Of a stretch of DNA of 64,000 nt, positions 42,323 to 62,236 are shown in pieces. The position numbers and the translations under genes are program-made. This DNA comes from Gelidibacter salicanalis (lineage in GTDB: Bacteria > Bacteroidota > Bacteroidia > Flavobacteriales > Flavobacteriaceae): positions 54,201 through 118,200 of the forward strand of contig NZ_JAEHJZ010000008.1 of assembly GCF_016469035.1 (NCBI RefSeq). Direction: 5' to 3'. A model generated the notes under the pieces. That model did no database searches. It saw only the letters and a list, made by a program, of their open reading frames with translations, and had not been told where the DNA came from. The stretch's first letter is position 1. Each line of letters begins with the position of its first letter.

Positions 42323-42381
42323 CAAATATTGTTAAAATATTAACAATAATTAAATTGTGCTACTTGACAAAAACTGAACAA
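42323..42381 (-). promoter_or_regulatory. susC promoter region with shared operator
   Basis: In gene direction the operator TTGTTCAGTTTTTGTCAAGT (complement of 42362-42381) is followed after 31 bases by AATATTTG (complement of 42323-42330), one mismatch from TAnnTTTG. The start codon lies 29 bases further on. An ATTGTTAA/TTAACAAT inverted repeat (42328-42347) overlaps. The 14-base core of the operator recurs before two other transcription units of the locus. Confidence 0.7.
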
Positions 42382-43117
42382 CTCTATTTATTTGGGTTTA
42401 ATTAACTTGATTCTGCCTGCATATTAGAATTATACATATAAGAGTCATTCTCATTACTTTAGCATTAAAGGGCTTTTAGTGATATTCGAGCACTAATTAT
42501 CATTCAATTTGTATCATGGGTTAACTTACGTATTATAAAACTCTGATTTGTGTATTAATATAATTGTTCGACAGTTTCTGCTTAGTATGCACATTTTTAA
42601 AATCATTATCTCAAAATATCCCCACCCACTAGGTGAAGTTTTTTAAAAAATGACCTATGTTGAGTCTATTTCAGGAAGCTTAACTTTGTAAGTGTTGTTT
42701 TCTTTAAATTCTTTTATTGCATATTTATCTATAAATTGAATATAGGTTTGTTTCCAATCCTTCTAAATTATTTAAAAATCTGAACTAGCTCCGAAAGCTA
42801 AGTGCTCATAATTGAAACTCCATTAAAGCATTTTTTTACCTATGATTCATATATTTTTATGGACTACAGTCCTTTTGCAATGAGCACTTATTTATATGCA
42901 AAACTTTTAAATTGTGATTCTACTAAAAATGAGTATGATCTCCAATTTTTATCGCTGGCTTTTTTAATTAGATAGGTTTGGATGATAGCCATGTTTCTAA
43001 TGTTCAGCAAGCAAAAAAACATGGGAGGATTATATGCTAAATAATATAGGAGGTCACTGGTGTTTTTCTGTTAAATCAATGGTTTGGGTTTAAGTCATTA
43101 ATTTTGAGCATTCTAGT

Positions 43118-43150
43118 TTTGTTTTTTTTTTTTGGGGTATTGTAATTTTG
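43118..43150 (+). promoter_or_regulatory. promoter of the TPR-LuxR regulator
   Basis: TTTG (43118-43121) and TAATTTTG (43143-43150) are separated by 21 bases, within the Bacteroidota range, 74 bases before the start codon. A 12-T run lies in the spacer. Confidence 0.5.
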
Positions 43151-43224
43151 TTTTTTTCAGACTTTGATTATCTTTCCATATTAGTATAACACCCTTTTTA
43201 AATAAATCATAATATTATATTAGA

Positions 43225-44868
43225 ATGACAATACTTTTCAGAAATTTTAGCAATTCCGTTACTTTCAAATTTAAAGTTTGCTTTTTGAGTGCTTTTTGCA
43301 TAATTGCTTCTGGGTTTTCTCAGGAAGTGACAAAGCCTGATAAATATTTTACAGAGGGTTTGCAAATAAGGTCTCAAAATCCAGATAGTGCTGTAGCTTT
43401 ATTTGATTACAGTTACAAAAAGTATTTACAGTTAAATGACACAACGAATGCAACCAATAGTTTGCTTGAAAAATCAATGGTGTTAGAGAATAATGCTAAA
43501 TACGCACAATCTTATGATGCTTTATGGAGTGCACTCATTTTGATTGATAATACGGACGATGCAAGACAGAAGTCTGTTATATATTATAGGTTAGGAAGAA
43601 TTTACAGCTATTACAAAAGAGAAAGGGAGTCAATTAAGTATCTTAAAAAAGCTTTAGAACTTCAAAAGGAATTAGTGAAAAATTCTGATCTTAAACCATC
43701 AGATTTAGTGCCTTATTATTATTCAATTGCAGTTACAAACAGAGAGTTGGAGCGTAAAGAATTAACAAAGGTTTATTTAGACAGTTCCTATTTATATTAT
43801 TCAAATGATAATAAAATTTTACCTTATGAATACTTAGAGTTTGAAAAAGCGAATTTATTGGCCTTAAATAATGAGAATCAAAAAGCCATTGAAATTATGG
43901 ATAGTATTTATCCGTGGTTTAAAGAAAATGAACCAACTTACCTCGTCTTATTTTATAAGTACTTAGGGGATGTGTATCTGAATTTATCCCTTCTTGATGA
44001 AAGTGAAGGATATTATCTAAAATCTCTAAAAGTTTCTGAATATAATAAAAGTCATATTGATTTTACTCCGCTAGTATATGAAAAACTTACACAAATATAT
44101 GTCAAGAAAAATGATTACAAAAGCGCATTTGAAAGTCAAGGAAAGGCTAAAGAATTAGATTCTAAATATTTTGATGCTAGAGGGTCTATAAATCAATCTT
44201 TACTTGAAATAAGGAATGATTATCTTGTAGAAAAAGATCGCCAAGAAAAGCTTATACAGCATCAGTATTTAAAACAGTTGGAGCAAGAGGATAAGATAAA
44301 TAAACTTCAATTAATCATTTTATTAGGATCAATAGTTTTTATAACTATTATTGGTTTCGCCTATTTTAAGTACCTGCGTTCAAGGCATAAAATAGAAAAG
44401 GAATTAATTGCAAGAAATAAGGAATTAGAAATTCAAAAACAACGGGAGTTGATTGAGATGAAGAACAAAGAGCTTGCTTCTTCTGCACTTCAGCTTATAG
44501 AAAAGGATGAGTTTTTAAAAGACTTAAAGTCAAAAATTAGAGTAGGGAGTGATAAAATAAAAATTCACGAAATAAATAAGGTCCTAAGAACTGTTTCTAG
44601 TGGTAACAATAATAATTGGGAGGAGTTCAAGTTGCGCTTTATTGATGTGAATAAGGAATTCTACGATAAAGTTTATGAAAAATATCCTAATCTTAGTCAA
44701 GGCGATCAAAAAATATGCGCTTTGATAAAATTAAATTTGTCAAGTAAAGATATGGCCCGGCTTCTGGGTATTTCTGTGGAATCCGTGCATACTTCAAGGC
44801 ATCGCATCAGAAAAAAAATGGATTTAGCGCGAAGTGTTAATCTAGAAGATTTCATTAATTCACTTTAA
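43225..44868 (+). CDS. TPR-sensor membrane regulator with LuxR-type HTH
   Basis: A 547-residue one-component membrane regulator. It has a signal-like N-terminus (residues 15-33) and a periplasmic TPR region (about 35-330) with helical repeats such as SVIYYRLGRIYSYYKRERESIKYLKKALE. A membrane helix lies near residue 365 (LIILLGSIVFITIIGFAYF), followed by a coiled coil. The C-terminal LuxR/GerE helix-turn-helix reads LSQGDQKICALIKLNLSSKDMARLLGISVESVHTSRHRIRKKM. Its position between the SusCD operon and the anhydrogalactose operon makes it a good candidate for the activator that binds the shared operator. Confidence 0.85.
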   Translation: MTILFRNFSNSVTFKFKVCFLSAFCIIASGFSQEVTKPDKYFTEGLQIRSQNPDSAVALFDYSYKKYLQLNDTTNATNSLLEKSMVLENNAKYAQSYDALWSALILIDNTDDARQKSVIYYRLGRIYSYYKRERESIKYLKKALELQKELVKNSDLKPSDLVPYYYSIAVTNRELERKELTKVYLDSSYLYYSNDNKILPYEYLEFEKANLLALNNENQKAIEIMDSIYPWFKENEPTYLVLFYKYLGDVYLNLSLLDESEGYYLKSLKVSEYNKSHIDFTPLVYEKLTQIYVKKNDYKSAFESQGKAKELDSKYFDARGSINQSLLEIRNDYLVEKDRQEKLIQHQYLKQLEQEDKINKLQLIILLGSIVFITIIGFAYFKYLRSRHKIEKELIARNKELEIQKQRELIEMKNKELASSALQLIEKDEFLKDLKSKIRVGSDKIKIHEINKVLRTVSSGNNNNWEEFKLRFIDVNKEFYDKVYEKYPNLSQGDQKICALIKLNLSSKDMARLLGISVESVHTSRHRIRKKMDLARSVNLEDFINSL

Positions 44869-44903
44869 AACACAACTAACATTTTCTGCACACCCTTGTT
44901 TTG

Positions 44904-44966
44904 TTTACATGTAAAGTTTTTGTCAAGTAGCTAAAGCTGCTCGTGCATTTGTTTTAATCTATTTTG
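44904..44966 (+). promoter_or_regulatory. operator and promoter region of the anhydrogalactose operon
   Basis: ATGTAAAGTTTTTGTCAAGT (44909-44928) matches the susC operator at 17 of 20 bases, including the identical core AGTTTTTGTCAAGT. A -7-like CTATTTTG follows after 30 bases (44959-44966), a poor match to TAnnTTTG but at the same distance as in the other two copies. A TTTACATGTAAA palindrome (44904-44915) overlaps its upstream half. Confidence 0.65.
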
Positions 44967-45069
44967 GTTGTTGATTTAATACAAAAGGTATTTCATTTTA
45001 ATGACGAAGAGGGGGTCTCTTTTTTCTAAAATCAGATCAAATAAATTTAAAACTTATAAATCAATGTAT

Positions 45070-46098
45070 ATGAAAACTAAGATGATGGCAACCCAATATG
45101 AGGGCAATAAAACATTTACGATATTCGAAAAAGAAAAAGAGCAACCATCTAAAAATGAAGTACGCATCAAAGTCGCATTTGTAGGTGTTTGTGGAACTGA
45201 TGTACATATCTATCATGGAATGATGGATAAACGTGTGAATATTCCAGTAACCATTGGGCACGAAATGTCAGGAGTAATTGACGCAGTTGGAGAGGGTGTC
45301 TCAGATTTTGTCATTGGGGACAAAGTTGTAGTTAGACCATTGGATGATAGAAAAGTTAAGCCTTCTGATAAGGGTTTCAATCACATTTGTGAAGAATTGA
45401 AATTTATCGGTATTGATAGTCCCGGTGCAATGCAAGAGTATTGGAATGTTCCAGCATTCGTTCTTCATAAATTAAATAATGATACTGATCTTAAATTAGC
45501 AGCCCTAATTGAGCCATTATCCGTGGCTACTCACGATGTTAGAATGAGTGGTTTACAGGCGGGCGAAACGGTAGTTATATTAGGTGGGGGTCCAATAGGT
45601 TTACTAATTGCCTTGGTGGCAAAAGAATCAGGTGCTCAAGTGATTGTTTCAGAAATAAACGAAACAAGAATTGCAAAAGCGAAAGAATTAGGATTAACTA
45701 CTGTTAATCCGATGCAGGTTGATGTGGTTGCGTATGTGAAAGAGCAGACTGAAGGAAGGCTCGCCGATGTGGTTTTTGAGGTGGCTGGAGTTCAATCTGC
45801 TCTAGATGTTATGACAGAAGTGGCTGGAATAAGAGGCCGAATAGTTATGGTGGCAATTCATGGAGAAAAAAAACCTGTTGATTTATTTAAGTTTTTTTGG
45901 AAAGAATTGAAATTAATTGGCGCACGTGTTTATGAAAAAGAGGATTATGAAAAATCAATTGCATTAATAAATGCTAACAAATTACCATTTGAGGCTATGA
46001 TAACGGATGTGCAGCCGTTGAGTAACATTCAGCAGGTTTTCGAAAATATCGATAAGAATCCCGACGGCATGAAGGTGTTGATGGATTGTAGCTTATAG
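45070..46098 (+). CDS. Zn-type MDR dehydrogenase, probable 2-keto-3-deoxy-L-galactonate 5-dehydrogenase
   Basis: A 342-residue medium-chain dehydrogenase. It retains the catalytic-zinc region (GVCGTDVHIYHG and GHEMSGVIDAVG) and the NAD motif LGGGPIGLLIALVA. The structural-zinc lobe reads PLDDRKVKPSDKGFNHICEEL, so three of the four usual cysteines are gone. By position with the SDR, it should perform the oxidation step that turns 2-keto-3-deoxy-L-galactonate toward 2-keto-3-deoxy-D-gluconate. The frame is open from 45001, and ATGs at 45064, 45070, 45082 and 45085 are all possible. Homology supports a start at or after 45064. Confidence 0.75.
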   Translation: MKTKMMATQYEGNKTFTIFEKEKEQPSKNEVRIKVAFVGVCGTDVHIYHGMMDKRVNIPVTIGHEMSGVIDAVGEGVSDFVIGDKVVVRPLDDRKVKPSDKGFNHICEELKFIGIDSPGAMQEYWNVPAFVLHKLNNDTDLKLAALIEPLSVATHDVRMSGLQAGETVVILGGGPIGLLIALVAKESGAQVIVSEINETRIAKAKELGLTTVNPMQVDVVAYVKEQTEGRLADVVFEVAGVQSALDVMTEVAGIRGRIVMVAIHGEKKPVDLFKFFWKELKLIGARVYEKEDYEKSIALINANKLPFEAMITDVQPLSNIQQVFENIDKNPDGMKVLMDCSL

Positions 46099-46125
46099 AA
46101 TTGAATCATAATTAAAAAAATAGAA

Positions 46126-46896
46126 ATGAGTGTATTAAATAAATTTAGTTTAGAAGGTAAAACAGTATTGGTTACAGGTTGTAAAAGAGGAATTGGCAAA
46201 GCCATGGCTATTGGATTGGCAGAAGCCGGTGCAAATATTATTGGGGTTTCGGCATCATTAGAATTGTCTGGAAGTGCCGTAGAAAAAGAAGTGGTAGCCC
46301 GTGGAAAAAAATTCAGTGCATACCAATGTGATTTTTCAGATAGAAAAACATTGTACCAATTTATTGCTGAAGTAAAAAAAGACCATCCACAAATTGATGT
46401 CTTGGTAAACAATGCGGGAACCATTTTAAGAGCTCCCGCGGCTGAACATTCAGATGAATTGTGGGATAAGGTAATTGAAGTAAACCAAAATGCACAATTC
46501 ATATTAACTCGAGAAATTGGCAAGGAAATGGTAGCTCGTGGATTTGGAAAAATAATATTCACTGCTTCATTATTAACCTTTCAAGGTGGAGTTACAGTGC
46601 CCGGTTATGCTGCAAGTAAGGGTGCTATTGGACAGATGACGATGGCCTTTGCTAATGAATGGGCTGCAAAAGGTGTAAACGTAAATGCCATTGCGCCGGG
46701 GTATATATCTACAGACAATACCGAGGCATTACGTAAGGATCCTATAAGGTCAGAATCGATCTTATCTCGTATTCCGGCAGGACGCTGGGGGGAAGCTGAA
46801 GATTTTGCTGGGCCCACCGTGTTTCTAGCGTCGGAAGCTGCCAGTTATATGAATGGAGCGATTGTTCTTGTGGACGGTGGTTGGATGGGTAGATAG
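46126..46896 (+). CDS. kduD: short-chain dehydrogenase, KduD-like
   Basis: A 256-residue classical SDR. The cofactor motif TGCKRGIGKAMAIGLAEAG begins near residue 16, NNAGTILRAPA near residue 89, and the catalytic YAASKG near residue 160 with serine in FTASLL. It resembles 2-dehydro-3-deoxy-D-gluconate 5-dehydrogenase (KduD). Here it likely reduces the 2,5-diketo-3-deoxy intermediate to KDG, completing the epimerisation begun by the preceding dehydrogenase, 27 bases away. Confidence 0.8.
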   Translation: MSVLNKFSLEGKTVLVTGCKRGIGKAMAIGLAEAGANIIGVSASLELSGSAVEKEVVARGKKFSAYQCDFSDRKTLYQFIAEVKKDHPQIDVLVNNAGTILRAPAAEHSDELWDKVIEVNQNAQFILTREIGKEMVARGFGKIIFTASLLTFQGGVTVPGYAASKGAIGQMTMAFANEWAAKGVNVNAIAPGYISTDNTEALRKDPIRSESILSRIPAGRWGEAEDFAGPTVFLASEAASYMNGAIVLVDGGWMGR

Positions 46897-47506
46897 TCAG
46901 ATAAAAACTAATGGGGATAGTAGCAATTTCATCGGATGATACGGGATGCTCTGATTTTGGTTTTCGATAAAGTAGACATCACATATCCCTAATATAGATA
47001 AATCAGTTTCAAGAGAAGTGAGATTGACATAGGTTTAAATTATAGTACTGTTTGTTCGCCATACCATGCGAGACTTAAAACAGGGAATTGCTATAAAGAA
47101 ATTACTTAGAATATAAAAGAGTGCCAAGAATTAGGTGTTAATGGTGATCGCAAGGTGCGGAAATCGAATTCTCTTTAGATTCTATCACTGTTGTTAATCA
47201 TATATAACAATTCGGTTACTCAAATGTAACTTTATCTTGGAAAAAAAAGGGAAGCTCTTTACGAAGTGGGGGTTGAAGTCTATATTTCCAGATCGAACGG
47301 CAGAGCTTTAATTATGAGGTGAAAATATTTCAGACGTGAAAGATCTGTCTTCCAAATATCACTAAAGGGTAAAGGAAATAAATGTAGAAGAAATTATCTG
47401 AACTTACTCTAGACGAATGATTGGAAATCATGCAGAAAAAATTATTATGAAGCTGCTGAAGGGTGGATATACATAGAAAACAGAATTAAAAAATAAAACG
47501 AAAATC
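46897..47506. other. gene-free stretch splitting the catabolic block
   Basis: This holds 610 bases between the SDR and the aldehyde dehydrogenase with no intact reading frame. Short coding-like fragments occur (for example around 47240-47330 and 47390-47440), together with the tRNA-Leu-like relic at 47121-47175. It looks like decayed inserted sequence. The promoter of the downstream genes must lie here or they read through from 44966. Confidence 0.5.
47121..47175 (+). pseudogene. second tRNA-Leu-like relic
   Basis: GTGCCAAGAATTAGG then a GATCGCAAGGTGCGGAAAT stretch and CGAATTCTC align with the anticodon arm, variable arm and T arm of the relic at 29710-29796. The common 12-mer is AGGTGCGGAAAT. 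It is more decayed than the first. The two copies bracket the P450 and SusCD genes. Confidence 0.35.
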
Positions 47507-48961
47507 ATGACAGAAATAAAAGTTTATCAGCTTTTTATAAATGGAGAGTGGGTAGCGTCAACTTCAGGGGAAACAATAGATATTATTAATCCATCAACTG
47601 AAGTAATTGTTGCACGCGTACAAAACGGAACTGAAGAAGAAGCTGCTAGAGCATTAGAAGCGGCTGAAAGTGCACAGAAAGAATGGAAGAAGCTGCCAGC
47701 GCGTTCTCGGGCAAATTTATTATATAAACTTGCCGCTGAAATAAAAGCAAACTCAGAATATTTGGCTGAATTGCTTGTTAAAGAGCAAGGGAAATTATTG
47801 AAAGTTGCGAAAGGGGAGGTTGCTGCAGCTGCTTCTTTTATAGAATACGCTTGTGAAGGTGCGCGCCGAATAGAAGGAGATATCGTTCCTTCCGATAATC
47901 CAAATGAACAGATCTGGATTCAAAAAATTCCTAGAGGAGTCGTTGTTGCTATAACCGCATGGAACTTCCCATTAGCGTTAGCTGCAAGAAAATTGGGGCC
48001 AGCTTTAATTGCAGGAAATACTATTGTAATAAAGCCTGCTTCGGAAACACCTTTAGCGACTTTAGAATTAGGGTATCTCGCCAACAAAGTAGGTATTCCT
48101 GCGGGAGTAATCAATATTTTAACTGGACCTGGACGTCTTATGGGTAATGCCTTGGTAGAAAACCCTATAACCAAAATGGTAACAATGACAGGTTCTACTA
48201 CAGTAGGACAGCAAATTGCACGGAATGCGGCCGTTAACCTAACCCACGTTCAATTAGAGCTAGGTGGAAAGGCTCCTTTTATAGTGTTTGAGGACGCAGA
48301 TATTGATGCTGCTGTAGCTTCTGCTTTGCATTCACGTTTTGACAACTGCGGACAGGTCTGTACCTGTAATGAGCGTATGTACCTTCATGAAGAGATTTAT
48401 GATGTGTTTATGATAAAGTTCATTGCAGCAGCAAAAGCTCTGAAAGTGGGAGATCCCATGTTGCATGATACTGATATGGGACCAAAGATTAATGATGCAG
48501 AATTGAAAAACATGGAGCGCTTAGTAGAAATAAGTGTCAAGGAGGGAGCAACAATAGCAACAGGAGGAAAGCGTCCTGAAGGGGCGCAGTTTAATAATGG
48601 ATTCTGGTTTGAACCAACAGTACTCACTAATGTAACTCAGGACATGACTATTGTGCACGAAGAATCGTTTGGGCCAATACTACCAGTTTTGAAATTCAAA
48701 ACCTTTGAAGAGGTTATTTGCTATGCCAATGACAGTCACTATGGTTTAGCCGCCATGATATTTACCAATGATATGAATACAATCATGAAGTGTAATGAAG
48801 AACTTGAATATGGAGAGATTTATGTAAATAGAGGTCATGGCGAACAACATCAAGGCTTTCACAATGGCTATAAGTTATCGGGTTCAGGAGGTGAAGACGG
48901 TAAATATGGTTTTGAACAATATCTAGAAAAGAAAACTTTTTATATCAAACATAAAATATAG
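47507..48961 (+). CDS. aldehyde dehydrogenase, probable 3,6-anhydro-L-galactose dehydrogenase
   Basis: A 484-residue NAD(P)-dependent aldehyde dehydrogenase. The catalytic residues are Glu251 (LELGGKAPF) and Cys285 (CGQVCTC), with the cofactor segment AWNFPLALAARKLGPALIAGN. It resembles lactaldehyde/glycolaldehyde-type ALDHs, the group to which anhydrogalactose dehydrogenases belong. It is followed seven bases later by the cycloisomerase gene, so it most likely oxidises 3,6-anhydro-L-galactose to 3,6-anhydro-L-galactonate, the first step of the pathway. Confidence 0.85.
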   Translation: MTEIKVYQLFINGEWVASTSGETIDIINPSTEVIVARVQNGTEEEAARALEAAESAQKEWKKLPARSRANLLYKLAAEIKANSEYLAELLVKEQGKLLKVAKGEVAAAASFIEYACEGARRIEGDIVPSDNPNEQIWIQKIPRGVVVAITAWNFPLALAARKLGPALIAGNTIVIKPASETPLATLELGYLANKVGIPAGVINILTGPGRLMGNALVENPITKMVTMTGSTTVGQQIARNAAVNLTHVQLELGGKAPFIVFEDADIDAAVASALHSRFDNCGQVCTCNERMYLHEEIYDVFMIKFIAAAKALKVGDPMLHDTDMGPKINDAELKNMERLVEISVKEGATIATGGKRPEGAQFNNGFWFEPTVLTNVTQDMTIVHEESFGPILPVLKFKTFEEVICYANDSHYGLAAMIFTNDMNTIMKCNEELEYGEIYVNRGHGEQHQGFHNGYKLSGSGGEDGKYGFEQYLEKKTFYIKHKI

Positions 48962-48968
48962 TTAAAGT

Positions 48969-50063
48969 ATGAGTACTAGAATCTCTAAAATACAAACCCA
49001 GTTGTTTACGGTTCCTTTGCTAGAAGTCCTTTCTGATGCAAAACACGGAGATCATTATCATTTTGAGTTAGTTACCGTAAGTATAACTTTGGAGGATGGG
49101 AGCGAGGGTACTGGGTACACCTATACAGGAGGGAAAGGTGGTTTTGCCATTAAGGCTATGTTAGAGCACGATTTCACTAGTGCGCTTATAGGTAAAGATG
49201 GTGCGGATATTGAAGGAATCTACGAATTTTTAGAATGGCATATCCATTACGTCGGTAGGGGTGGAATTGCATCGTTTGCAATTTCTGCCGTAGACATCGC
49301 GCTTTGGGATATTCGTTGTAAAAAAGCGGATCAACCATTATGGAAAATGGCAGGTGGTGAGGGAAATACTTGTAAAGCATACTGTGGCGGAATCGACTTA
49401 ATGTTTCCTTTGGAAAAACTCTTAGCCAACATAAAAAATTATCTAGAACGTGGTTTTAATGCGATTAAGATTAAAATTGGTCGAGAAAATTTAAATGAAG
49501 ATTTGGAACGTATCAAAGCAGTAAGAGAATATGTTGGTCCAGATGTCACATTTATGGTCGATGCCAATTATTCTATGACCATACAGGAAGCTATCAATGC
49601 TATTGAGGGTTTTAAGCAATATGATATCACCTGGTTTGAAGAACCCATCATTCCTGATAACTACAAAGGTTACGGTGAGATAGTTGATGAAACTGGATTT
49701 CCTTTGGCTATGGGGGAAAATCTACATACTATTCATGAATTTGGATATGCCATGGAACAATCAAAATTAGCGTTTATTCAACCAGATGCCTCTAACTGTG
49801 GAGGTATTACTGGATGGTTGGCTGCCGCTAAATTGGCTGCTAAATACGATATTCCAGCATGTTCTCACGGCATGCAAGAGTTACACGTGAGCCTAGTGTC
49901 TTCACAACCTAATTCTGGATGGTTAGAAGTGCATAGTTTCCCTATTGATGAGTATACGATGCGACCTCTGGTAGTTAAAGATTACAGAGCGGTTGCGCCA
50001 GAAAACCCAGGGATTGGAGTGATTTTTAACTGGGAGAAATTAGAGCCATTTGAACAAAAATAA
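48969..50063 (+). CDS. 3,6-anhydro-L-galactonate cycloisomerase (enolase superfamily)
   Basis: A 364-residue mandelate-racemase-type enolase-superfamily enzyme. Catalytic lysines are in KIK (Lys167, Lys169), the metal ligands are Asp198, Glu224 and Glu250, and His300 in CSHG is the opposing base. In agar catabolism such an enzyme opens the anhydro ring of 3,6-anhydro-L-galactonate to 2-keto-3-deoxy-L-galactonate. The position between the ALDH and GH117 genes supports this over other enolase-superfamily dehydratase activities. Confidence 0.88.
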
Positions 50064-50067
50064 ATAT

Positions 50068-52730: not shown

Positions 52731-52732
52731 GT

Positions 52733-53410: not shown

Positions 53411-53426
53411 AAAATAAACTTTTAGA

Positions 53427-54986
53427 ATGTCAAGTAAGCAGTTATATACAATACGCATTTCGGCAATAGTTGCATTAGGCGGCTTTTTGTTAGGATTTGA
53501 TGCCTCGGTTATTTCGGGAGTCGTGAAATTTATAGAACCAGAGTTTAGCCTTACAAAAATTGAGCTTGGTTGGGCGGTAAGTTCTATAACATTAACAGCA
53601 GCCTTAGGTATGATAATTGCTGGTCCCATGAGTGATAAACATGGGAGAAGAAAGCTACTAAAATATGCCGCACTGTTATTTACAATTTCTGCATTAGGTT
53701 CTGCCTTAGCAGGAAGTTTCTTTTGGCTTATCATTTTTAGAATGATTGGTGGATTAGGTGTTGGTGCCGCCTTAATTATTGCACCTATGTATATTGCTGA
53801 AGTTGCGCCACCTGAAAAACGAGGGCAATTGGTGTCATTTAATCAGCTAAATATTGTTATTGGTATTTCAGTAGCCTTTTTTACCAATTACCTTATTCTC
53901 AAATGGGGTAGTTCAGACGCACAATGGACTAAAACGTTAGGTTTTGAGAAATGGAATTGGAGGTGGATGTTAGGTATTGAAACCCTTCCTGCTATATTGT
54001 ATTATATAAGTTTAAAAGTTGTGCCTAGAAGTCCACGCTGGTTAATGACTCAAAATAAAAGAAAAGAGGCATTAGAAGTCATGAAAATGGTGGTTTCTGA
54101 AGAAGCTGCAGTTTTCCAAATTAATGCAGTAGAGCAAAGTATTAATGAAGATAAAAATAATCAGAAAGCAAAATTTGGAGATGTCTTTAAAAAGTCAATG
54201 CGAAAAGTAATTATAATAGGGTTAATTGTTGGAGTTTTTCAACAAATAGTAGGTATAAATGCAGTGCTTTTTTACGCTCCAATGATTTTTGAGCAAACGG
54301 GTATTGGAACAGATGCTTCATTTATCCAAGCTGCTTTGGTAGGGGTTACAAACCTAGGTTTTACCATAGTAGCAATGTTGGTCATAGATAAGTTTGGGAG
54401 AAAACCTTTGCTAATTTTTGGAATGATAGGTATTGCCGTTTGTTTGTTCTTGCTGAGCTATGGGTTTAACGAGGCGACCTACACACTTACTCAAGATGCT
54501 ATAGCAAATCTTCCAAAAGAAATTAACCAACAACAAATTTCACAACTTCAGGATAAGGTATTTGAAAACGATCTTGACTTCAAAGCAGCTATAATCTCAA
54601 CTTTAGGTGAAGAGAATGCAAGAGTTCATGAAGGAACCCTAGTTACTGCATCAGCTAAAATGAACACGCTTTTAATTCTTATGGGAATTATAGGGTTCGT
54701 TGGTGCTTTTGCTATGTCCATTGGCCCTGTAATGTGGGTGTTGTTTTCCGAATTATTTCCAAATAAAATTCGAGGTGTTGCTATTTCATTTGTTGGATTG
54801 GTTAACCTTGGAGTTGCTTTTTTAGTACAGCTTTTATTTCCATGGGAACTTTCGGTGTTGGGCAATTCTGTGACCTTTTTGATATTCGGTGTATTAGCAG
54901 TCATAGGCTTAGTTTTTATTTGGTTTAAAGTGCCAGAAACTAAAGGGAAATCATTGGAGGAGTTAGAGACTTTATTAGTTAAATAA
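53427..54986 (+). CDS. MFS sugar porter
   Basis: A 519-residue inner-membrane sugar/H+ symporter-like protein with twelve predicted helices. Diagnostic sugar-porter signatures are GGFLLGFDASVISGVV near residue 16, SDKHGRRK after TM2, PRSPRWLM before the central loop, GINAVLFYAPMIF, and the final VPETKGKSLEEL. An insertion of about 60 residues occurs between TM9 and TM10. It probably takes neoagarobiose, galactose or anhydrogalactose from the periplasm to the cytosolic enzymes encoded around it. Confidence 0.9.
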   Translation: MSSKQLYTIRISAIVALGGFLLGFDASVISGVVKFIEPEFSLTKIELGWAVSSITLTAALGMIIAGPMSDKHGRRKLLKYAALLFTISALGSALAGSFFWLIIFRMIGGLGVGAALIIAPMYIAEVAPPEKRGQLVSFNQLNIVIGISVAFFTNYLILKWGSSDAQWTKTLGFEKWNWRWMLGIETLPAILYYISLKVVPRSPRWLMTQNKRKEALEVMKMVVSEEAAVFQINAVEQSINEDKNNQKAKFGDVFKKSMRKVIIIGLIVGVFQQIVGINAVLFYAPMIFEQTGIGTDASFIQAALVGVTNLGFTIVAMLVIDKFGRKPLLIFGMIGIAVCLFLLSYGFNEATYTLTQDAIANLPKEINQQQISQLQDKVFENDLDFKAAIISTLGEENARVHEGTLVTASAKMNTLLILMGIIGFVGAFAMSIGPVMWVLFSELFPNKIRGVAISFVGLVNLGVAFLVQLLFPWELSVLGNSVTFLIFGVLAVIGLVFIWFKVPETKGKSLEELETLLVK

Positions 54987-55017
54987 AACATATTAATTAA
55001 AAATTTACACATTCAAG

Positions 55018-57159
55018 ATGATTTTACTGAAGAAATGGGCAAGACTGGTAATGATGATGATAGTTATCTTTTTAATGTCTACCAATTGTAAAAGTGAACT
55101 AGATCGAAAGCAAAAACAAGAACACAAGCTGTTATTGTTTGATTTCGAAGATCTAGCGCAAACTCAATTCATAAAACCTCAAGATGCCACCTATGAATTG
55201 GTGGGAAATGAAGGGAATAGTCATGTCAATGTAGTTACGGGAACAACTTTAAGAGAGGCTGGTGTGCGACTGCTTAGTCCAGAGCATGAGCCATGGGATT
55301 TATCAAGTTATTTTCAAGTAAAAGCTGATATCACTAATCTCGGAGAAGAAATTATACAGGTTGAATTATTTGTAGGGAATGATCCAGATGATATGAAAAG
55401 ATGGTATTGTTCTGATTATGTAGATCTAGCACCTGGTGAAAGTAAAACTATTTCTGTAGACCTGGCTTGGACACCTTGGATTTTTGAACCACAGATTGAG
55501 GTTAAGGGACTGAGAGGGATTCCAGGCCAATTAAAAGCCGACTTGACAAAAATAACGGAGTTGACATTTTGCTCGAGATATGCAACAGAACCTAATAATT
55601 TTACAATAGATAATGTTAGAGCAGTAGGCAAGTATGAAAAAAGAAATCCTAGAAATTTCTTTCCATTTGTTGACGAATATGGTCAATATATTCATGATGA
55701 CTGGAAGGGTAAAATTCATTCTGACGAAGAATTAGAGGATAAGGCAAAAGGAGAATTAGAATATTTATCAAAAGCTACGGGCCCAAAGGATCGAGGTAAG
55801 TTTGGAGGCTGGACTGCAGGTCCGAAGTTGAAAGGAACTGGTTTTTTTAGGACGGAAAAAAAGGATGGGAAATGGTGGATTGTGGATCCTGAAGGATATC
55901 TATTCTGGACTGCAGGTTTAAATTGCGTTGCATCAGATGCAGTTCCTACTGGCGTTTCCAGTCGTGAAAATTATTTTTTAAATCTGCCTGAAAAAGATGG
56001 CGAATTTCATCAATTCTATGGTCAAGGAATAAATGCTTCACATGGTTTTTACAAAGATAAATATCCTTATGAAACCTATAACTTCTATCAAAGTAATTTG
56101 TATAGAAAATATGGTGAAGACTGGTTAAGTACATTTCAAGATTTAGCTCATAAGCGCATAAAAAACTGGGGGATGAACACCATTGGTTTCGTTTCGGATT
56201 TTGGTGCAACACGCCAGGCTAGAACACCTTACGTTGGTTCGATTTGGATTTATGAAACCCCGAAAATTGAAGGATCTGAAGGTTTTTGGGGTAAATTCCA
56301 TGATGTATTCGATCCTACCTTTAGATATGCGGTGCGTAATTCTATAGAAATTCAAAAAGAAGGCGCTAATGATCCATATTGTATCGGTTATTTTGTAGAC
56401 AATGAGCTGTCATGGGGTTTGTTGGGATCTTTGTCGATTAGCACATTAAAAAGTCCAGCTAGCCAATCAGCTAAAATCGAGTTTGTAAATGACCTTAAGG
56501 CAAAATACTCGCAAATTGAAAATCTGAATGCAGTATGGGGAACCAGTCATAAAACTTGGGAAGCATTATTACAATCTACGACACCTCCAAATCAGAAAAA
56601 AGCGAACGAAGATCTAGTGGAGTTTTATGGGAAAATAGCTGATACTTACTTTAAAACTATAAACGAAGAACTTAAAAAGATAGCACCACATCAAAACTAT
56701 TTAGGATGCCGATTCGCTTGGGCAAATAATGATGTTGTGTTATCTCAAGCAAGTAAATATTTAGACATTATGAGTTTTAATAAATACGAATATAGCATCG
56801 AGAATTTCTCATTACCTAAAGGTGTTGATATGCCGGTTATGATCGGAGAATTTCATTTCGGTGCATTGGATAGGGGAAGTTTTCATATAGGTATCAAAAA
56901 AGCAAAAGATCAAGCTGAACGTGGTCAGATGTATCAAGATTATATCCAAGGAGCTTTAAGACACCCTAATATTGTTGGCGCGCATTGGTTTCAATATATC
57001 GATGAACCAAATACAGGGCGTTTTGATGGAGAAAATTACAATGTGGGTTTTTTAGATATATGCGATAATCCTTATGAAGAATTAATAGCTAAAGTTAAAG
57101 AAACTACATATTCCATGTATGATTACAGAATTAATACAACTACAGATGAAAAGCAATAA
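55018..57159 (+). CDS. GH50 beta-agarase, lipoprotein
   Basis: A 713-residue lipoprotein (lipobox STNC, Cys24). Residues about 38-205 form a beta-sandwich, CBM-like domain typical of GH50 N-termini. The catalytic barrel follows (GTGFFRTEKKDGKWWIVDPEGYLFWTAG at 273-300), with the acid/base Glu463 in VDNELSWG and the nucleophile Glu611 in MIGEFHFG. GH50 enzymes cut agarose or neoagaro-oligosaccharides, usually exo-acting to neoagarobiose. It is anchored to the membrane, probably in the periplasm or at the surface. Confidence 0.9.
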   Translation: MILLKKWARLVMMMIVIFLMSTNCKSELDRKQKQEHKLLLFDFEDLAQTQFIKPQDATYELVGNEGNSHVNVVTGTTLREAGVRLLSPEHEPWDLSSYFQVKADITNLGEEIIQVELFVGNDPDDMKRWYCSDYVDLAPGESKTISVDLAWTPWIFEPQIEVKGLRGIPGQLKADLTKITELTFCSRYATEPNNFTIDNVRAVGKYEKRNPRNFFPFVDEYGQYIHDDWKGKIHSDEELEDKAKGELEYLSKATGPKDRGKFGGWTAGPKLKGTGFFRTEKKDGKWWIVDPEGYLFWTAGLNCVASDAVPTGVSSRENYFLNLPEKDGEFHQFYGQGINASHGFYKDKYPYETYNFYQSNLYRKYGEDWLSTFQDLAHKRIKNWGMNTIGFVSDFGATRQARTPYVGSIWIYETPKIEGSEGFWGKFHDVFDPTFRYAVRNSIEIQKEGANDPYCIGYFVDNELSWGLLGSLSISTLKSPASQSAKIEFVNDLKAKYSQIENLNAVWGTSHKTWEALLQSTTPPNQKKANEDLVEFYGKIADTYFKTINEELKKIAPHQNYLGCRFAWANNDVVLSQASKYLDIMSFNKYEYSIENFSLPKGVDMPVMIGEFHFGALDRGSFHIGIKKAKDQAERGQMYQDYIQGALRHPNIVGAHWFQYIDEPNTGRFDGENYNVGFLDICDNPYEELIAKVKETTYSMYDYRINTTTDEKQ

Positions 57160-57175
57160 ATTGATTAGAAGAATT

Positions 57176-58189
57176 ATGAAACGAAATAAATGGAAGCATA
57201 GTGTTTTGATGGTATCACTGGGCTCTTTGCTTTTTTTTATGGGCTGTAAAAACACATCTAGTTCGACAAATTCAAAGAAGATTAAAGAGATGTCTTCAAC
57301 TATTAAAGAGAGTGATTTCGGGTTTTCAATCGATGATTTTAAGAATTTAAATCCGGACTATCCTTCTTTTGTCTCCTTAGATGATACCACTCCTGAGGAT
57401 AAGAAATGGGTCAAATTGGAGGACATGTCCGATGAGTTCGAATTTTGGGATAGTTCAAAATGGTTTAAATCTACTTGGAATTATGAGGTTCCTGTTTACA
57501 TGTCGACATCCGATATAAATTCAGGTGTTATAAATGGTGAATTGTGGATAAAAGCAACTTTAAATGAAAGCAATCCTGAGGGAAGGTGGTTTCAAACGGC
57601 GAGAATACATTCTAAAGCTAAAATTAAATATCCAATGTACACAGAGGCAAGGATAAAGTCATCTTATATCTCTGCCTATAATACATATTGGCTGAATAAC
57701 GGAGATATCAATAACAGAGATGAGATTGATATTATTGAGAATAATGCAAAACCCTCTTGTGATGGATGCCAACCCGATTTTCCAAATAAAATGAATTCAC
57801 AGTATTTTCATGCGGATTCCAGTATGTCGCCAGAAACCATTAGAAATGCGAGTAATTTTTCAAACACATATTTATCAAATGCAAACCCGCAAAAGGGGGT
57901 CAAATGGAATGAGGACTATCATGTTTTTGGAGTTTGGTGGAAAGACTCTAAACACATACAATTTTACCTAAATGGAGAGCCAGCAGGAGCTGTTGTTGTT
58001 GGTGAGGATAGATCTGGAGAAATATATCATGGTCGTGAATTTACTCGTGATCTAGAAATAATCTTCGATTTGTGGACTAACGAAGCTGATTATCTCGGTG
58101 GTCTTCCTCCAAAAAAAGATTTAAATGATGACACTATTAATACGATGCGAATTGATTGGGTTAGAACATGGACATTAGAAGACTTGTAG
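57176..58189 (+). CDS. GH16 beta-agarase or porphyranase, lipoprotein
   Basis: A 337-residue GH16 lipoprotein (lipobox MGC, Cys24). The catalytic signature is EIDIIE with Glu183 (nucleophile), Asp185 and Glu188 (acid/base). The fold segments FQTARIHSKAKIKYPMYTEARIK and YHVFGVWWKDSKHIQFYLNGE are typical of red-algal galactanases in GH16. I cannot decide between agarose and porphyran specificity. It is clearly different from the GH16 at 61217. I take the start at 57176, 16 bases after the GH50 stop. Upstream ATGs at 57119 and 57146 overlap that gene. Confidence 0.85.
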   Translation: MKRNKWKHSVLMVSLGSLLFFMGCKNTSSSTNSKKIKEMSSTIKESDFGFSIDDFKNLNPDYPSFVSLDDTTPEDKKWVKLEDMSDEFEFWDSSKWFKSTWNYEVPVYMSTSDINSGVINGELWIKATLNESNPEGRWFQTARIHSKAKIKYPMYTEARIKSSYISAYNTYWLNNGDINNRDEIDIIENNAKPSCDGCQPDFPNKMNSQYFHADSSMSPETIRNASNFSNTYLSNANPQKGVKWNEDYHVFGVWWKDSKHIQFYLNGEPAGAVVVGEDRSGEIYHGREFTRDLEIIFDLWTNEADYLGGLPPKKDLNDDTINTMRIDWVRTWTLEDL

Positions 58190-58219
58190 TACTTTTTTAC
58201 TAAAACAAAAAACAATAAA

Positions 58220-60736
58220 ATGAAAAATATCAGTCAAGAAGAGAGAGAGTATTTAGCTCAACAAGGCAAAGAATCTAACGAAAAAGTTGTTTTCGATTTA
58301 AGCGGAAATAAATGGCAATTTGAAGGAATAAGACCAGATGAAGGTGTAAAAGTTGGTTTTCATGAATTGAACTTCGACATTACTGGAGATTCATTTAATT
58401 GGTCTTTTGCCAAAGTGCCAGGAGATGTATATACAGATCTTTGGAGAGCAGGTAGAATTGAAGACCCTCACTTTGGAAGAAATAGTGTAAAAGCAAAATG
58501 GGTTCCAGAAAACGAATGGTGGTATAAACGCCAGTTTGATGTACCAAAAACCATGTTTGATAAACATATTCAATTGGTTTTTGATGGTGTAGATTTTGGA
58601 TGCGATGTTTGGTTAAATGGGAAGTTTTTAGGATCTCATGAAGGAATGTTTTCTAAATTTAAGTTTGACGTTTCTGAAGATATTCGTTTTGAAAATTTAC
58701 GTTTTGGAACCAACGTTTTAATGGTTCGTTTGCATCCAGCACCAAGAAGATACAGTCAAGTTGCTGGTCGTAAACCTGCATGGCATGGAGATTATTGGGT
58801 AAGTTTACCTCCAACAGGAATTTGGAAACCAGTTTATTTAGAAGCAACAGGTAAAGTTACTATTGAAGATACATACGTAAAACCTGTTATTTTAACGGAA
58901 GATTCTGCAAGATTAGATATTGAAGTTGAGTTAAAAAATCATGAAGATGCAGAAAGAGAAGTAGCAATTAACATTGAAGTTGAAGGCGAAAATTTTGAAT
59001 CTAAAACATATCAAGTTCATAAAAAAGTTAAGGTTTCAGAAGGAACAAATAACTATGAAATCAGTTTAGATATTGATGATGCAAAACTTTGGTGGCCTTG
59101 GGATTTAGGAGATCAAAATTTATATATAGCTAAAGTTACTGTTATTGAAGGTGAAGATAGTTTATTAGATACAACAGATACTTCTTTTGGAATTCGTGAA
59201 GTAAAAATGGTACACAATCCTGGGTTTACTTTAGAACAAGTAGAAAACCCTTGGACAGTTATGATTAATGACAAACGTCATTTTATGCGTTCAGGAACTT
59301 GGGGAGGACCACCAGATATTTTTATGGGTCGAGCACATCCAAGTAAATATGTAGAGTTAATTCGTTTAGCAAAAGAATGTAACTTTAATAACTTAAGAAT
59401 ATTTGGTTGGCATCCAGAAGAAATTCCGTTGTTTTACAAATTATGTAACGAAGCCGGAATTACAGTTTGGCAAGATGTTTTACCATTAGCAAGTTTGTCT
59501 TTACCAAAAGATGAAGAGTTTAAACAAGCTGTTTTTGCAGAAGCAATTGCATCAGTTAAAGAACAAAGAAATCATCCTTGTTTAGTATTGTTAGAAGGTT
59601 CTGAAGAGTTATTCATGACTGCTTCTGATCCAGAACACAATTTAGAATTTGTAAATGCATTGGGTGAGGCTATTAAACCTTATACTCCTTTACATTTTAT
59701 TCCTTCTTCTCCTTTAAGTGATGAGGTTGGTTTAAATTTAGGTTTTAAACCAAACGAAAGTTTCCACGCTAATGATTTATTCTATGGTGAAGGAGAGTTT
59801 GTAATGGAAGAGTATTTCCCTAGTTTAGATTTTGCAGTAATTCCTGAATTAGCAATTTCATCATGTCCAAATGTTGAAAGTATTAAGAAGTTTATTCCTG
59901 CTGATGAAGTATGGCCTCCAGGACCAAGTTGGGGACATCACTGGACGGATTTTGATGCTTTAAGAACTTTAAATTTTGAAGTTCTAGGAGATCAAAGTAG
60001 AGATGGATTAGAAAAATTTGTTGAAGCTACCCAAATTGCACAAGGGGTTATCTTTCAATATGCATTAGAACACTTTAGAACAAGAAAACCAAAAACAAGT
60101 GCAGTTTGTATTTGTCACTATATCACTTTTGCTCCAGATATGAAATGGGGTATTGTAGATTATTATCAAAAGAAGAAAATATCTTTTGACTACGTGAGAA
60201 AAGCATATCAACCTATTTTAATTACTATGAAACATTATGACAGACGTTGGTTGCCTGGAGAAGATTTTAAAGGAGAGCTATGGGTTGTAAATGATTACTA
60301 TAAATCATATAACAATTGTAAAGCTATTATCAAATTCTTAAATAATAACAAGACTATAATTAAAGAAGAAACGTTTGATATTTCTGAAATAAAAGGGGAT
60401 AGTTCAGGTAAATTTGTTGATGTTTCTTGTAAAGTTCCAGGAGAAATAGGAGATAGATTCTATACTGAAATTTCTTTGGTTGATGCAGATGGAAATTCTA
60501 TTTCTGAAAACGACTATATGTTATTAGTTGCAGATAAAGAAAAAGACAGAAAAGAATTAAGAGCCATTGGTTTAGAAGCTTTTGAAACTAAGGAAAAATT
60601 TGGTTGGGCAAATTACTTTAGATATTATCCGAGTTTGGGTGGCGAAGAAGGTTATTTGGAAGCAGATCAAGAAATGCCAGTTGCAAGAGGTTTTGGAGAT
60701 AATGTTACTACTGAAAATAAAGGATTGGTAATTTAA
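58220..60736 (+). CDS. GH2 family glycoside hydrolase, beta-mannosidase-like architecture
   Basis: An 838-residue GH2 protein without signal peptide. The N-terminal sugar-binding domain is followed by a jelly-roll, an Ig-like domain (WWPWDLGDQNLY near residue 291) and the TIM barrel. Likely catalytic residues are Glu462 in LLEGSEEL (where beta-mannosidases have GNNE) and Glu543 in VIPELAISS. GH2 enzymes in agar/porphyran loci usually act as exo-beta-galactosidases on oligomers. The acid/base motif is unusual, so activity is a prediction. Codons look more A/T-ended than in neighbours. It is the last gene before the terminator at 60794. Confidence 0.8.
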   Translation: MKNISQEEREYLAQQGKESNEKVVFDLSGNKWQFEGIRPDEGVKVGFHELNFDITGDSFNWSFAKVPGDVYTDLWRAGRIEDPHFGRNSVKAKWVPENEWWYKRQFDVPKTMFDKHIQLVFDGVDFGCDVWLNGKFLGSHEGMFSKFKFDVSEDIRFENLRFGTNVLMVRLHPAPRRYSQVAGRKPAWHGDYWVSLPPTGIWKPVYLEATGKVTIEDTYVKPVILTEDSARLDIEVELKNHEDAEREVAINIEVEGENFESKTYQVHKKVKVSEGTNNYEISLDIDDAKLWWPWDLGDQNLYIAKVTVIEGEDSLLDTTDTSFGIREVKMVHNPGFTLEQVENPWTVMINDKRHFMRSGTWGGPPDIFMGRAHPSKYVELIRLAKECNFNNLRIFGWHPEEIPLFYKLCNEAGITVWQDVLPLASLSLPKDEEFKQAVFAEAIASVKEQRNHPCLVLLEGSEELFMTASDPEHNLEFVNALGEAIKPYTPLHFIPSSPLSDEVGLNLGFKPNESFHANDLFYGEGEFVMEEYFPSLDFAVIPELAISSCPNVESIKKFIPADEVWPPGPSWGHHWTDFDALRTLNFEVLGDQSRDGLEKFVEATQIAQGVIFQYALEHFRTRKPKTSAVCICHYITFAPDMKWGIVDYYQKKKISFDYVRKAYQPILITMKHYDRRWLPGEDFKGELWVVNDYYKSYNNCKAIIKFLNNNKTIIKEETFDISEIKGDSSGKFVDVSCKVPGEIGDRFYTEISLVDADGNSISENDYMLLVADKEKDRKELRAIGLEAFETKEKFGWANYFRYYPSLGGEEGYLEADQEMPVARGFGDNVTTENKGLVI

Positions 60737-60824: not shown

Positions 60825-61119
60825 TGTTTTCATTAGAAACTTCTTATTTATAAAATCAATACTGACGGATAAATATGATTCTTTTAAAATGTATCAATAG
60901 AGCGATTGAAATAAAAATTTATAAAATAGTTTGATATCCTAAAACTTTAGCTCCTCTTAAGTTGGGAGTGATTTTTCAAATTTCAAATTTGTTCAATTGA
61001 GATATGAAATAGCCGTCGTAGCGCAGAAGTTGGAAATAATGAAAGAGTTCATGGACTCTTGCACCGGATTACACCAATGGTAAAATGGAATTCAGATAAG
61101 TAGCTGATTTTAATGAAAA
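60825..61119. other. gene-free spacer
   Basis: Together with the flanking terminators it separates the convergent GH2 and GH16 genes (60737-61216). One plus-strand stretch at about 60996-61083 reads as a 29-codon protein-like fragment (beginning LRYEIAVVAQKLEIMKEFMD) without a start. I do not recognise it and treat it as possible decayed coding sequence. Confidence 0.3.
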
Positions 61120-61151
61120 AAAGCTGAATAATATTTTAATTATTCAGCTTT
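61120..61151 (-). terminator. intrinsic terminator of the GH16 agarase gene
   Basis: AAAGCTGAATAAT (61120-61132) and ATTATTCAGCTTT (61139-61151) form a 13-bp perfect stem. On the minus strand it is followed by TTTTTTT. Confidence 0.8.
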
Positions 61152-61216
61152 AAACAAAATAGTCCCATGATAATTTAGATTAGTCTTCCAGTTCCAATTA
61201 TAACTAAATAGTTATC

Positions 61217-62155
61217 TTAATTTTTAACTGGTTTAAATACTCTGATCCAATCAATTTTAAACGTATTGTTGTCTGGAATATGAAGTTCTTCATCAGTAGG
61301 TGTGAGACCCATTTCTGCGCGCCAGGTTTGATCTTCAGCATTTATAATAACATCCATTTCTTTATTTAGTCCTGTCCCATTTGTATAATTTAATGGATCT
61401 ATTTCAGAGACCCCTGATCGCGTTCTTACCAGTTGACCATTTATGTAATACTCTAGATTCCATGGATCTTTCCAATACACTCCAAATCTGTGGTAGTCGT
61501 TCCTCCAAACGGTGCTGTTATCGGTGTAAAAGCTGCCTTCATCACTTGGTTGCCAATCTTGGAACGGATCACGAATAAACACATGATGGCTTAAGTGAAC
61601 TCTTTTTGGGCTAAACCAAGTATTGGTCCAACGGTCTCCTCCATAAGCTTCAACAATATCAATTTCTTGGGTATCGTCAGGACTTAATAGCCAAAAAGCG
61701 TTTGCCAAAACGGAGTTCATTATTTTTACACGAGCTTCAATATAAACGGGGTATTGAACTCTAGTTTTAGAGGTGATAATTCCAGTATTGGTTATTGCAG
61801 TACCTTCAGGACGTGTGGCTAATATCTTTAATTTGCCATTTGTAACCAGAGAATTACTTCGTTTCCATTCCGTTGGTGGAGGGCCAGTCCAAGCATTATG
61901 ATACCAATCATTCCATTTACTTAAAAATGTAGCACTTTTCCCATCTGCTGGAGCTTCATATTCAAAGTCATCAGACACATTGGCTTGAAACTCCCATTTC
62001 ATTCCAGTGCCTGGATTTGCGGGCACTGGAATCGTAATCCATGTTTCTTCAATTTCTTCAGGGACTTCCTCTATTTTAGTTTGATCATCAGAATTAGATT
62101 CTGAGCAGTTTAAAACAAGAAAAAAAGTTAGTCCTAATAATAAATATTTTTTCAT
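61217..62155 (-). CDS. GH16 beta-agarase, lipoprotein
   Basis: A 312-residue lipoprotein (lipobox LNC, Cys17) with an acidic linker and a GH16 catalytic domain from about residue 39. The pattern is that of classical beta-agarases A/B: IPVPANPGTGMKWEFQ, ITSKTRVQYPVYIEARVKIMNS, FWLLSPDDTQEIDIVEAYG, KRVHLSHHVFIRDPF and GTGLNKEMDVIINAEDQTWR. Catalytic residues are Glu164, Asp166 and Glu169. It endo-cleaves beta-1,4 links in agarose at the cell surface. The upstream region carries the shared operator. Confidence 0.93.
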   Translation of the reverse strand: MKKYLLLGLTFFLVLNCSESNSDDQTKIEEVPEEIEETWITIPVPANPGTGMKWEFQANVSDDFEYEAPADGKSATFLSKWNDWYHNAWTGPPPTEWKRSNSLVTNGKLKILATRPEGTAITNTGIITSKTRVQYPVYIEARVKIMNSVLANAFWLLSPDDTQEIDIVEAYGGDRWTNTWFSPKRVHLSHHVFIRDPFQDWQPSDEGSFYTDNSTVWRNDYHRFGVYWKDPWNLEYYINGQLVRTRSGVSEIDPLNYTNGTGLNKEMDVIINAEDQTWRAEMGLTPTDEELHIPDNNTFKIDWIRVFKPVKN

Positions 62156-62178
62156 TTATTCACAGTTATTAGTTGGGT

Positions 62179-62236
62179 TAAAGATAAAGGATCAAATGTT
62201 TTTATACATCAAATCAACTTGACAAAAACTGAACAA
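62179..62236 (-). promoter_or_regulatory. GH16 agarase promoter with shared operator
   Basis: In gene direction TTGTTCAGTTTTTGTCAAGT (complement of 62217-62236) is identical over 20 bases to the susC copy. TTTG (complement of 62210-62213) and TATCTTTA (complement of 62179-62186) follow, giving 30 bases from operator to the -7-like element and a 23-base -33/-7 spacer. The start codon is 23 bases downstream. Confidence 0.7.

Follow-up and report, generated by a model that had tools for sequence, protein, structure and literature searches.

A conserved tandem repeat as putative operator of a membrane-anchored TPR-LuxR regulator in the agar locus of Gelidibacter salicanalis

The stretch of Gelidibacter salicanalis DNA analysed here (64,000 nucleotides of contig NZ_JAEHJZ010000008.1, positions 54,201 to 118,200 of the forward strand; the window) contains an agar-catabolism locus in which the same 14-mer, AGTTTTTGTCAAGT, stands upstream of a susC-like gene, an anhydrogalactose operon and a GH16 agarase gene, and the question this raises is what the sequence does and which protein reads it. 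A first-pass annotation took it for the binding site of a locus-wide regulator, most simply the protein encoded at 43225-44868, which combines a TPR domain with a presumed LuxR-type helix-turn-helix (HTH) and is referred to here as TPR-LuxR, and possibly an AraC-family protein. The explanation that accounts best for the whole, and that we regard as very probable from sequence comparison, is that the 14-mer belongs to a 19-bp tandem operator, read by the membrane-anchored TPR-LuxR protein and jointly switching on the agar genes. A locus-wide regulator with TPR-LuxR as the reader is favoured by conservation of the repeat, its phasing with a promoter box, its association with the regulator among 397 genomes and a small control set (0/5) described below; the AraC protein is not favoured, on its distribution among genomes.

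An exact search bears out the positions of the three identical 14-mers (42362-42375 and 62217-62230 on the minus strand, 44915-44928 on the plus strand), and it is correct that the susC and GH16 copies share 20 bp and that the third shares 17 bp with the susC copy. With up to two mismatches the window contains seven matches, against a shuffled mean of 1.42, and 0/100 shuffles reached seven. The abundance of the motif was checked in the organism's own assembly (5,163,451 bases, 682 contigs), which has exactly four exact copies, all on contig C662 and inside 35 kb, where base composition predicts ~0.12 per genome. Allowing one mismatch gives nine matches including the four exact ones, and the additional five equal the five of the reversed pattern; with so low an exact expectation and with non-exact matches at the control level, the motif is not as common elsewhere as it is in the locus.

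The 14-mer is real as a motif, but comparison of orthologous loci shows it to be the core of a longer unit, a 19-bp head-to-tail direct repeat, TGTnnAGT-TTT-TGTnnAGT, that has a half-site period of 11 bp, and the first-pass annotation also missed a fourth site, which is inverted. Exact genome matches to the 19-mer pattern TGTNNAGTNNNTGTNNAGT are the four of the 14-mer and no others, and the pattern's 15 one-mismatch matches are no excess over the 24 matches with up to one mismatch of the reversed control; the composition expectation per genome is ~1.2 for the plain 12-base pattern and 0.04 with the TTT spacer. The half-sites are TGTTCAGT/TGTCAAGT at susC and GH16, TGTAAAGT/TGTCAAGT at the anhydrogalactose operon and TGTTAAGT/TGTCAAGT at a GH50 operon, with centres 11 bp apart in all four; for the sites pooled from other genomes the search pattern imposes the same distance. 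The 14-mer alone was tried as a family-wide query and set aside in favour of the 19-mer pattern: it matched 9/199 genomes, several of the matches looking like chance in their context, and it serves poorly because relatives often have CTAGT instead of CAAGT. The principal features of the window are as follows, the bit scores coming from a matrix built from other genomes only.

42362..42380, minus strand: 19-bp putative operator TGTTCAGT-TTT-TGTCAAGT upstream of susC, 28.9 bits
42323..42330, minus strand: -7-like box AATATTTG of susC, starting 32 nt past the operator
39198..42293, minus strand: susC-like TonB-dependent transporter, target (Pfam Plug, CarbopepD_reg_2)
37465..39186: susD, following susC (Pfam SusD families)
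35891..37459: PKD protein, following susD
43225..44868, plus strand: proposed regulator TPR-LuxR, 547 residues, with an N-terminal hydrophobic segment, TPR, a transmembrane segment (357-384), a long helix and a C-terminal HTH
44910..44928, plus strand: 19-bp putative operator TGTAAAGT-TTT-TGTCAAGT upstream of the anhydrogalactose operon, 27.1 bits
44960..44967, plus strand: -7-like box TATTTTGG of the anhydrogalactose operon, starting 32 nt past the operator
45001..60736, plus strand: anhydrogalactose target gene series, zinc alcohol dehydrogenase first, the extent of the operon being putative
62217..62235, minus strand: 19-bp putative operator TGTTCAGT-TTT-TGTCAAGT upstream of the GH16 agarase gene, 28.9 bits
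62179..62186, minus strand: -7-like box TATCTTTA of GH16, starting 31 nt past the operator
61217..62155, minus strand: GH16 beta-agarase, target (PDB sequence match to beta-agarase B, E 1.7e-108)
34931..35782, plus strand: AraC-family protein, the rival reader, not favoured

Ten orthologue loci were chosen by protein similarity alone, around TPR-LuxR relatives of 43-60% identity, and all ten contain relatives of the agar-catabolism genes of this locus (L058, only 4 kb long, shows two). They contain 13 exact and 12 one-mismatch repeats, compared to 0 and 1.6 in shuffled sequences (mean of 5). A wider set of 40 regions, covering 41 TPR-LuxR matches outside the G. salicanalis genome and partly drawn from the same contigs as the ten, contains 28 exact and 37 one-mismatch repeats, compared to 0 and 4.0 in shuffles (mean of 3), and the repeat is kept around TPR-LuxR relatives of only 32-64% identity. 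A site is present in 33/40 of these loci, some perhaps by chance (e.g. the one-mismatch site of L166), against 0-3/40 in six shuffles; L052 and L142 are the same contig, as are L055 and L147, and as pooled sites were deduplicated by sequence L147 would be a 34th. The 105 distinct pooled sites, like the sets of 76 and 80 used below, exclude one-mismatch sites whose spacer has one T or none. Of the 105, 103 are intergenic, though open reading frames make up 86% of that DNA. A gene starts within 350 bp downstream in the orientation of the site in 81 of them and in neither direction in seven, and two lie inside reading frames. A weight matrix of 23 bits trained on 76 sites from other genomes gives its highest scores, 27-29 bits, to the three window sites, compared to 13.2 for the next match in the window and 17.5 for the best of eight shuffles; the scores of the TPR-LuxR loci are training data, whereas those of the own genome and of regulator-less genomes are not.

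The sites are also phased with a promoter element. The near-constant spacing of -7-like elements seen in the first-pass annotation is borne out, with boxes that start 31-32 nt past the motif and each agree at 5/6 positions with TAnnTTTG; a nearer ACATTTG in the GH16 promoter lies off the conserved spacing, and the box on the spacing is TATCTTTA. Among 80 pooled sites, 54 have a box of at least 5/6 starting at +31 to +33 from the repeat (five at 31 nt, 36 at 32 nt and 13 at 33 nt), whereas other offset triplets have 3.4 on average and 11 at most, the offset being counted independently of the motif definition. The box is that of flavobacterial sigma-A promoters, which sits at -12 to -5 in the passages available from PMC9723704, and the repeat would therefore span about -62 to -44. 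No conserved TTG, as in a -33 element, was found upstream of the -7 box in the sites examined. This geometry suggests an activator-dependent promoter, and as judged from sequence the putative operator has the general properties of one: it is over-represented, intergenic, conserved and at a fixed distance from a promoter element.

Repeat and regulator also occur together. Among 397 genomes of the family, the repeat with a TTT spacer is present in 30, with 46 sites by tally and 13 for the reversed pattern, and TPR-LuxR at E 1e-80 gives at least 42 matches in at least 27 genomes, with at most three candidates scored per genome. Both are present in 18 genomes, the repeat only in 12, the regulator only in nine and neither in 358 (Fisher 4.8e-17; 4.3e-16 without the own genome), and in 13 of the 18 a TPR-LuxR gene has an exact site no more than 25 kb away. 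Eight of the nine regulator-only genomes (G050, G134, G177, G180, G236, G289, G383, G388) have a variant repeat, with another spacer or one mismatch, beside the regulator, and in the ninth, G237, no repeat was found in the regulator region examined. An agar marker, anhydrogalactonate cycloisomerase at E 1e-110, is present in 32 genomes, including 27/27 of those with TPR-LuxR. The five marker genomes lacking a TPR-LuxR match (G011, G036, G129, G227, G389) provide the control: 0/5 have the TTT-spacer repeat anywhere in the genome, and around their anhydrogalactose operons there is no repeat at 0-1 mismatch and no matrix score above 10.8, so the repeat follows the regulator and not merely the enzymes.

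Surroundings were examined for 20 of the 46 sites, five in genomes without TPR-LuxR and 15 in genomes with it. Six of the 15, which lie elsewhere in the TPR-LuxR genomes, face a gene related to one in the locus (GH16 twice, GH50, GH2, FG-GAP and the unknown protein 57119-58189), and two are inverted before GH50 or PhoD.

The protein proposed to read the repeat was modelled with AlphaFold2 (mean pLDDT 80, pTM 0.54, 11 sequences), and C-terminal helices are placed at 492-502, 507-514, 518-531 and 540-546, with the proposed recognition helix ESVHTSRHRIRKK. Profile matches to the HTH are weak and below cut-off (Pfam Sigma70_r4_2, E 0.00011; NCBIfam MctR response regulator, E 8.5e-6); the best 50 matches in a PDB fold search of the model are mostly TPR proteins, none named as an HTH domain and none informative on how DNA is bound, and all 23 sequence matches to solved structures fall on the TPR region. 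The core of the recognition helix, ESVHT, is exact in 38/49 distinct relatives and in 34/42 of those in site-bearing loci, and occurs in 0/6 other LuxR-type proteins of the own genome (e.g. RSVEV). A single mid-protein transmembrane segment is present in 48/48 relatives of 500-575 aa, and the natural reading of the model would place the TPR sensor in the periplasm and the DNA-binding part in the cytoplasm.

In the mechanism that we propose, the TPR domain would lie in the periplasm, its predicted location, and could there sense agar breakdown products, and the cytoplasmic HTHs of two subunits would sit side by side on the two half-sites, whose spacing of 11 bp is one helical turn, on one face of the DNA. 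Bound at about -62 to -44, the regulator would recruit RNA polymerase to promoters having a TAnnTTTG -7 box and no visible -33 element. Joint switch-on would then cover uptake (susCD), agarases (GH16 and GH50) and the anhydrogalactose pathway.

Several observations weigh against this interpretation. By the deduplicated count 7/40 loci have no site (one being the duplicate record L147, which does have sites), and at 15/105 pooled sites the only gene start within 350 bp lies against the site's orientation. The genomes compared are related, so the p-values overstate independence, and the 0/5 control is small (p 0.0099) and may have missed weaker TPR-LuxR relatives, given three candidates at most per genome and the E 1e-80 threshold. 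No close TPR-LuxR is found in 12/30 repeat-bearing genomes, some of whose repeats are chance matches, and in three of these (G195, G363 and G257) a -7 box of 5-6 of 6 stands at the usual place; these three may use a different protein at the repeat. Of the 15 sites elsewhere in TPR-LuxR genomes, seven precede no gene or genes without recognised kinship to the locus. ESVHT is altered in 11/49 relatives, eight of them in site-bearing loci, most of the 11 being near variants such as ESIHT and KSVHT. The N-terminal hydrophobic segment exceeds the threshold in only 23/48 relatives, so the sequences argue only faintly for a periplasmic TPR domain. Lastly, the fourth site of the own genome is inverted relative to its operon, and neither direction shows a -7 box at the usual spacing; this inversion recurs at GH50 genes of G119 and at the PhoD gene of G246.

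The exceptions among genomes could be accounted for if a regulator encoded elsewhere, such as a response regulator or a longer LuxR-type protein, reads the repeat and the TPR-LuxR gene is merely linked to it. Repeats are present in 12/397 genomes without a close TPR-LuxR, and in G099, G257 and G077 the site is within a few kb, on the same contig, of a frame of ~930-950 aa with the C-terminal region in common. A distance of about 11 bp between direct repeats is typical of some response regulators. We nevertheless consider this improbable, as the repeat and TPR-LuxR are strongly associated (Fisher 4.8e-17), 5/5 marker genomes without TPR-LuxR are also without the repeat, and the recognition helices differ (RSVEIKRYR and HSVEIKRYR) in the long proteins encoded close to the sites of G077 and G099. 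Two of the sites in genomes without a close TPR-LuxR, L201:6486 (TGTCCAGTTTTTGTCCAGT) in G195 and L202:7006 (TGTCTAGTTTTTGTCCAGT) in G363, have a -7 box at 32 nt and precede proteins of 1984 and 2437 aa; neither genome is among those with the agar marker, and they possibly have the same type of operator with another regulator.

Among readers of direct repeats, AraC proteins are the best known. The AraC-family protein at 34931-35782 is encoded in the same locus, a relative at E 1e-30 is present in 27/27 TPR-LuxR genomes, and direct-repeat binding is described, in the passages available from PMC9723621, as restricted to few regulators, mostly of the AraC family. That it reads the tandem repeat is very unlikely on its distribution: an orthologue of at least 50% identity is present in only 12/27 TPR-LuxR genomes and missing from 9/18 genomes that have both repeat and TPR-LuxR, and tblastn finds no match in 8/10 orthologue loci, several of which have exact repeats (L058 being only 4 kb). 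Where the gene is present it adjoins a P450 gene in four loci (L060, L061, L140, L145), and the P450-AraC intergenic region contains no tandem repeat. An interpretation of the repeat as part of an extended promoter, or as a chance AT-rich similarity, is scarcely credible, for although the repeat is T-rich, lies upstream of promoters and has a plain 12-base pattern expected ~1.2 times per genome, the 5.16-Mb genome has four copies and no more, every one in the agar locus, the ~31 nt between the end of the repeat and the -7 box are too many for a -33 element of a sigma factor, and the repeat is kept in genomes whose regulator orthologues have diverged to 32-64% identity.

The matrix extends the likely agar response beyond the window by one operon. 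The fourth exact 14-mer is at C662:131639-131652, 13.4 kb past the window end (19-mer C662:131634-131652, corresponding to L010:15635-15653), and adjoins genes for a GH50 agarase and then a PhoD-like protein, an FG-GAP protein, an enoyl-CoA hydratase, an aldehyde dehydrogenase, a solute-binding protein and two CoA-transferases. The earlier observation that the copies have the same orientation relative to their genes thus holds for the three in the window and not for this one (3/4). An inverted repeat is present at the GH50/PhoD operon in three genomes (L010:15635-15653; L215:6933; L209:7163) and lacks a -7 box at the usual spacing. The three sites have largely dissimilar flanks, so selection may be keeping the inversion. 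No second, normally oriented site with up to three mismatches precedes this operon in the own genome, G119 or G246. Relatives of the hydratase and aldehyde dehydrogenase genes have an upstream site in normal orientation in L052 and L054 (one mismatch each) and in L053 of Flavivirga algicola (two mismatches), which supports membership of these two genes in the regulon.

Within the window, the 45001..60736 series encodes a zinc alcohol dehydrogenase, an SDR protein, an aldehyde dehydrogenase, anhydrogalactonate cycloisomerase, GH117, a PfkB kinase, a KDPG aldolase, an MFS transporter, a GH50-like protein, an unknown protein and GH2. GH117 and the cycloisomerase were identified by matching solved structures, and 55018-57159, which matches Pfam Agarase_CBM, we take to be GH50-like. 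The GH16 beta-agarase at 61217-62155 matches no Pfam family at E 0.001 despite its E of 1.7e-108 to the solved beta-agarase B. Autoregulation was considered and rejected for the own genome, nothing in 42294-43224 besides the susC site scoring above 0.3 bits; sites do lie close upstream of the regulator gene in other genomes (e.g. L147), so autoregulation may vary.

Tyrosine-recombinase (phage integrase) genes flank the agar locus on both sides (window 28346-29566 and L010:17613-18644), and three genomes of the same genus that were sampled contain neither TPR-LuxR nor the cycloisomerase at the thresholds used; the locus may therefore be an acquired genomic island. A block at 30091-35782, encoding an esterase, a zinc alcohol dehydrogenase, a ferredoxin reductase, a P450 with 6g5o as closest solved structure, and the divergent AraC protein, recurs in other genomes and is possibly a separately regulated module for O-methyl-galactose demethylation. 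From 62411 to the window end (L010:612-3482) there is a divergent gene for a 956-aa FG-GAP/UnbV/Big_2 protein, facing away from the GH16 gene; it has no repeat in its own orientation here, and a 67% relative in G119 follows a repeat.

Red-algal galactans, agar among them, make up a large pool of carbon in the sea. With its 23 bits and the fixed distance to the promoter box, the matrix has enough specificity for regulon members to be proposed across a whole genome. It is conceivable, with the balance tipping slightly the other way, that TPR-LuxR proteins form a class of polysaccharide regulators in Bacteroidota sharing one code, with a TGTnnAGT direct repeat, its half-sites one helical turn apart, at -62 to -44 before TAnnTTTG, an HTH acting on direct repeats, and sometimes an inverted site. 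Regulons would then be predictable from sequence, including genes far from the locus and of unknown function, and an HTH on direct repeats would be an unusual mode outside AraC proteins. G286, whose genome encodes a 66% orthologue, also has a second, repeat-flanked TPR-LuxR paralogue of ~33% identity (L175, G286:C1:350306-351865), and these two regulators may share one operator code.

Among known systems, MalT of E. coli has a similar TPR-like superhelical sensor fold, its domain III (1hz4; one domain only) being found at rank 34 of the fold search with a TM score of 0.62 by target length. MalT joins a sugar sensor to a C-terminal LuxR-type HTH, activates sugar genes and reads direct repeats, and is a soluble ATPase-type activator. 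TPR-LuxR differs in its transmembrane segment, and Pfam and sequence analysis revealed no ATPase domain in 43225-44868. Membership of the BT3442 family (NCBIfam NF053779) was considered and rejected, as residues 284-535 match at E 0.00038 with 19.3 bits against a cut-off of 940.

Two other regulators of related catabolism are similar in role. A hybrid two-component system (HTCS) has been proposed for the gut agarose polysaccharide utilization locus (PUL) of B. uniformis NP1, and HTCS proteins resemble the present system in sensing and activating a whole PUL for agar or another glycan, as far as the passages of PMC5849685 describe them; they differ in having histidine kinase and response-regulator parts and an AraC-type HTH, none of which Pfam finds in the 43225-44868 protein. 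CgrA, the regulator of carrageenan catabolism in Zobellia galactanivorans, is likewise one regulator over an anhydrogalactose pathway in a marine flavobacterium, but belongs to the AraC family and acts on a carrageenan locus without a susCD pair, and the passages available from PMC5698469 describe no operator.

In the titles, abstract beginnings and passages returned by our literature searches, no description was found of this operator or of a TPR-LuxR agar regulator, and a search of the available papers with four motif strings matched only five, on animal biology as judged by title. The nearest parallel is with the SusR-like regulators of Bacteroides, which in the excerpts of PMC3878776 are membrane-anchored one-component PUL regulators with a sensor region, a transmembrane segment and a C-terminal HTH, often encoded beside susC/susD, and have direct-repeat operators predicted upstream of regulated genes. 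The TPR-LuxR protein has the same architecture, the periplasmic side being predicted, but its sensor is a TPR domain and its HTH gives weak Sigma70_r4 and response-regulator profile matches. The predicted SusR-like operators have box centres 67 or 77 bp apart (PMC3878776), compared to 11 bp here, a distant second box not having been searched for systematically, and because this feature differs we do not assign the operator to the SusR type, with which it was compared by description only. The repeat described here is real and its reading as an operator well supported, and the system is a variant on a known kind.

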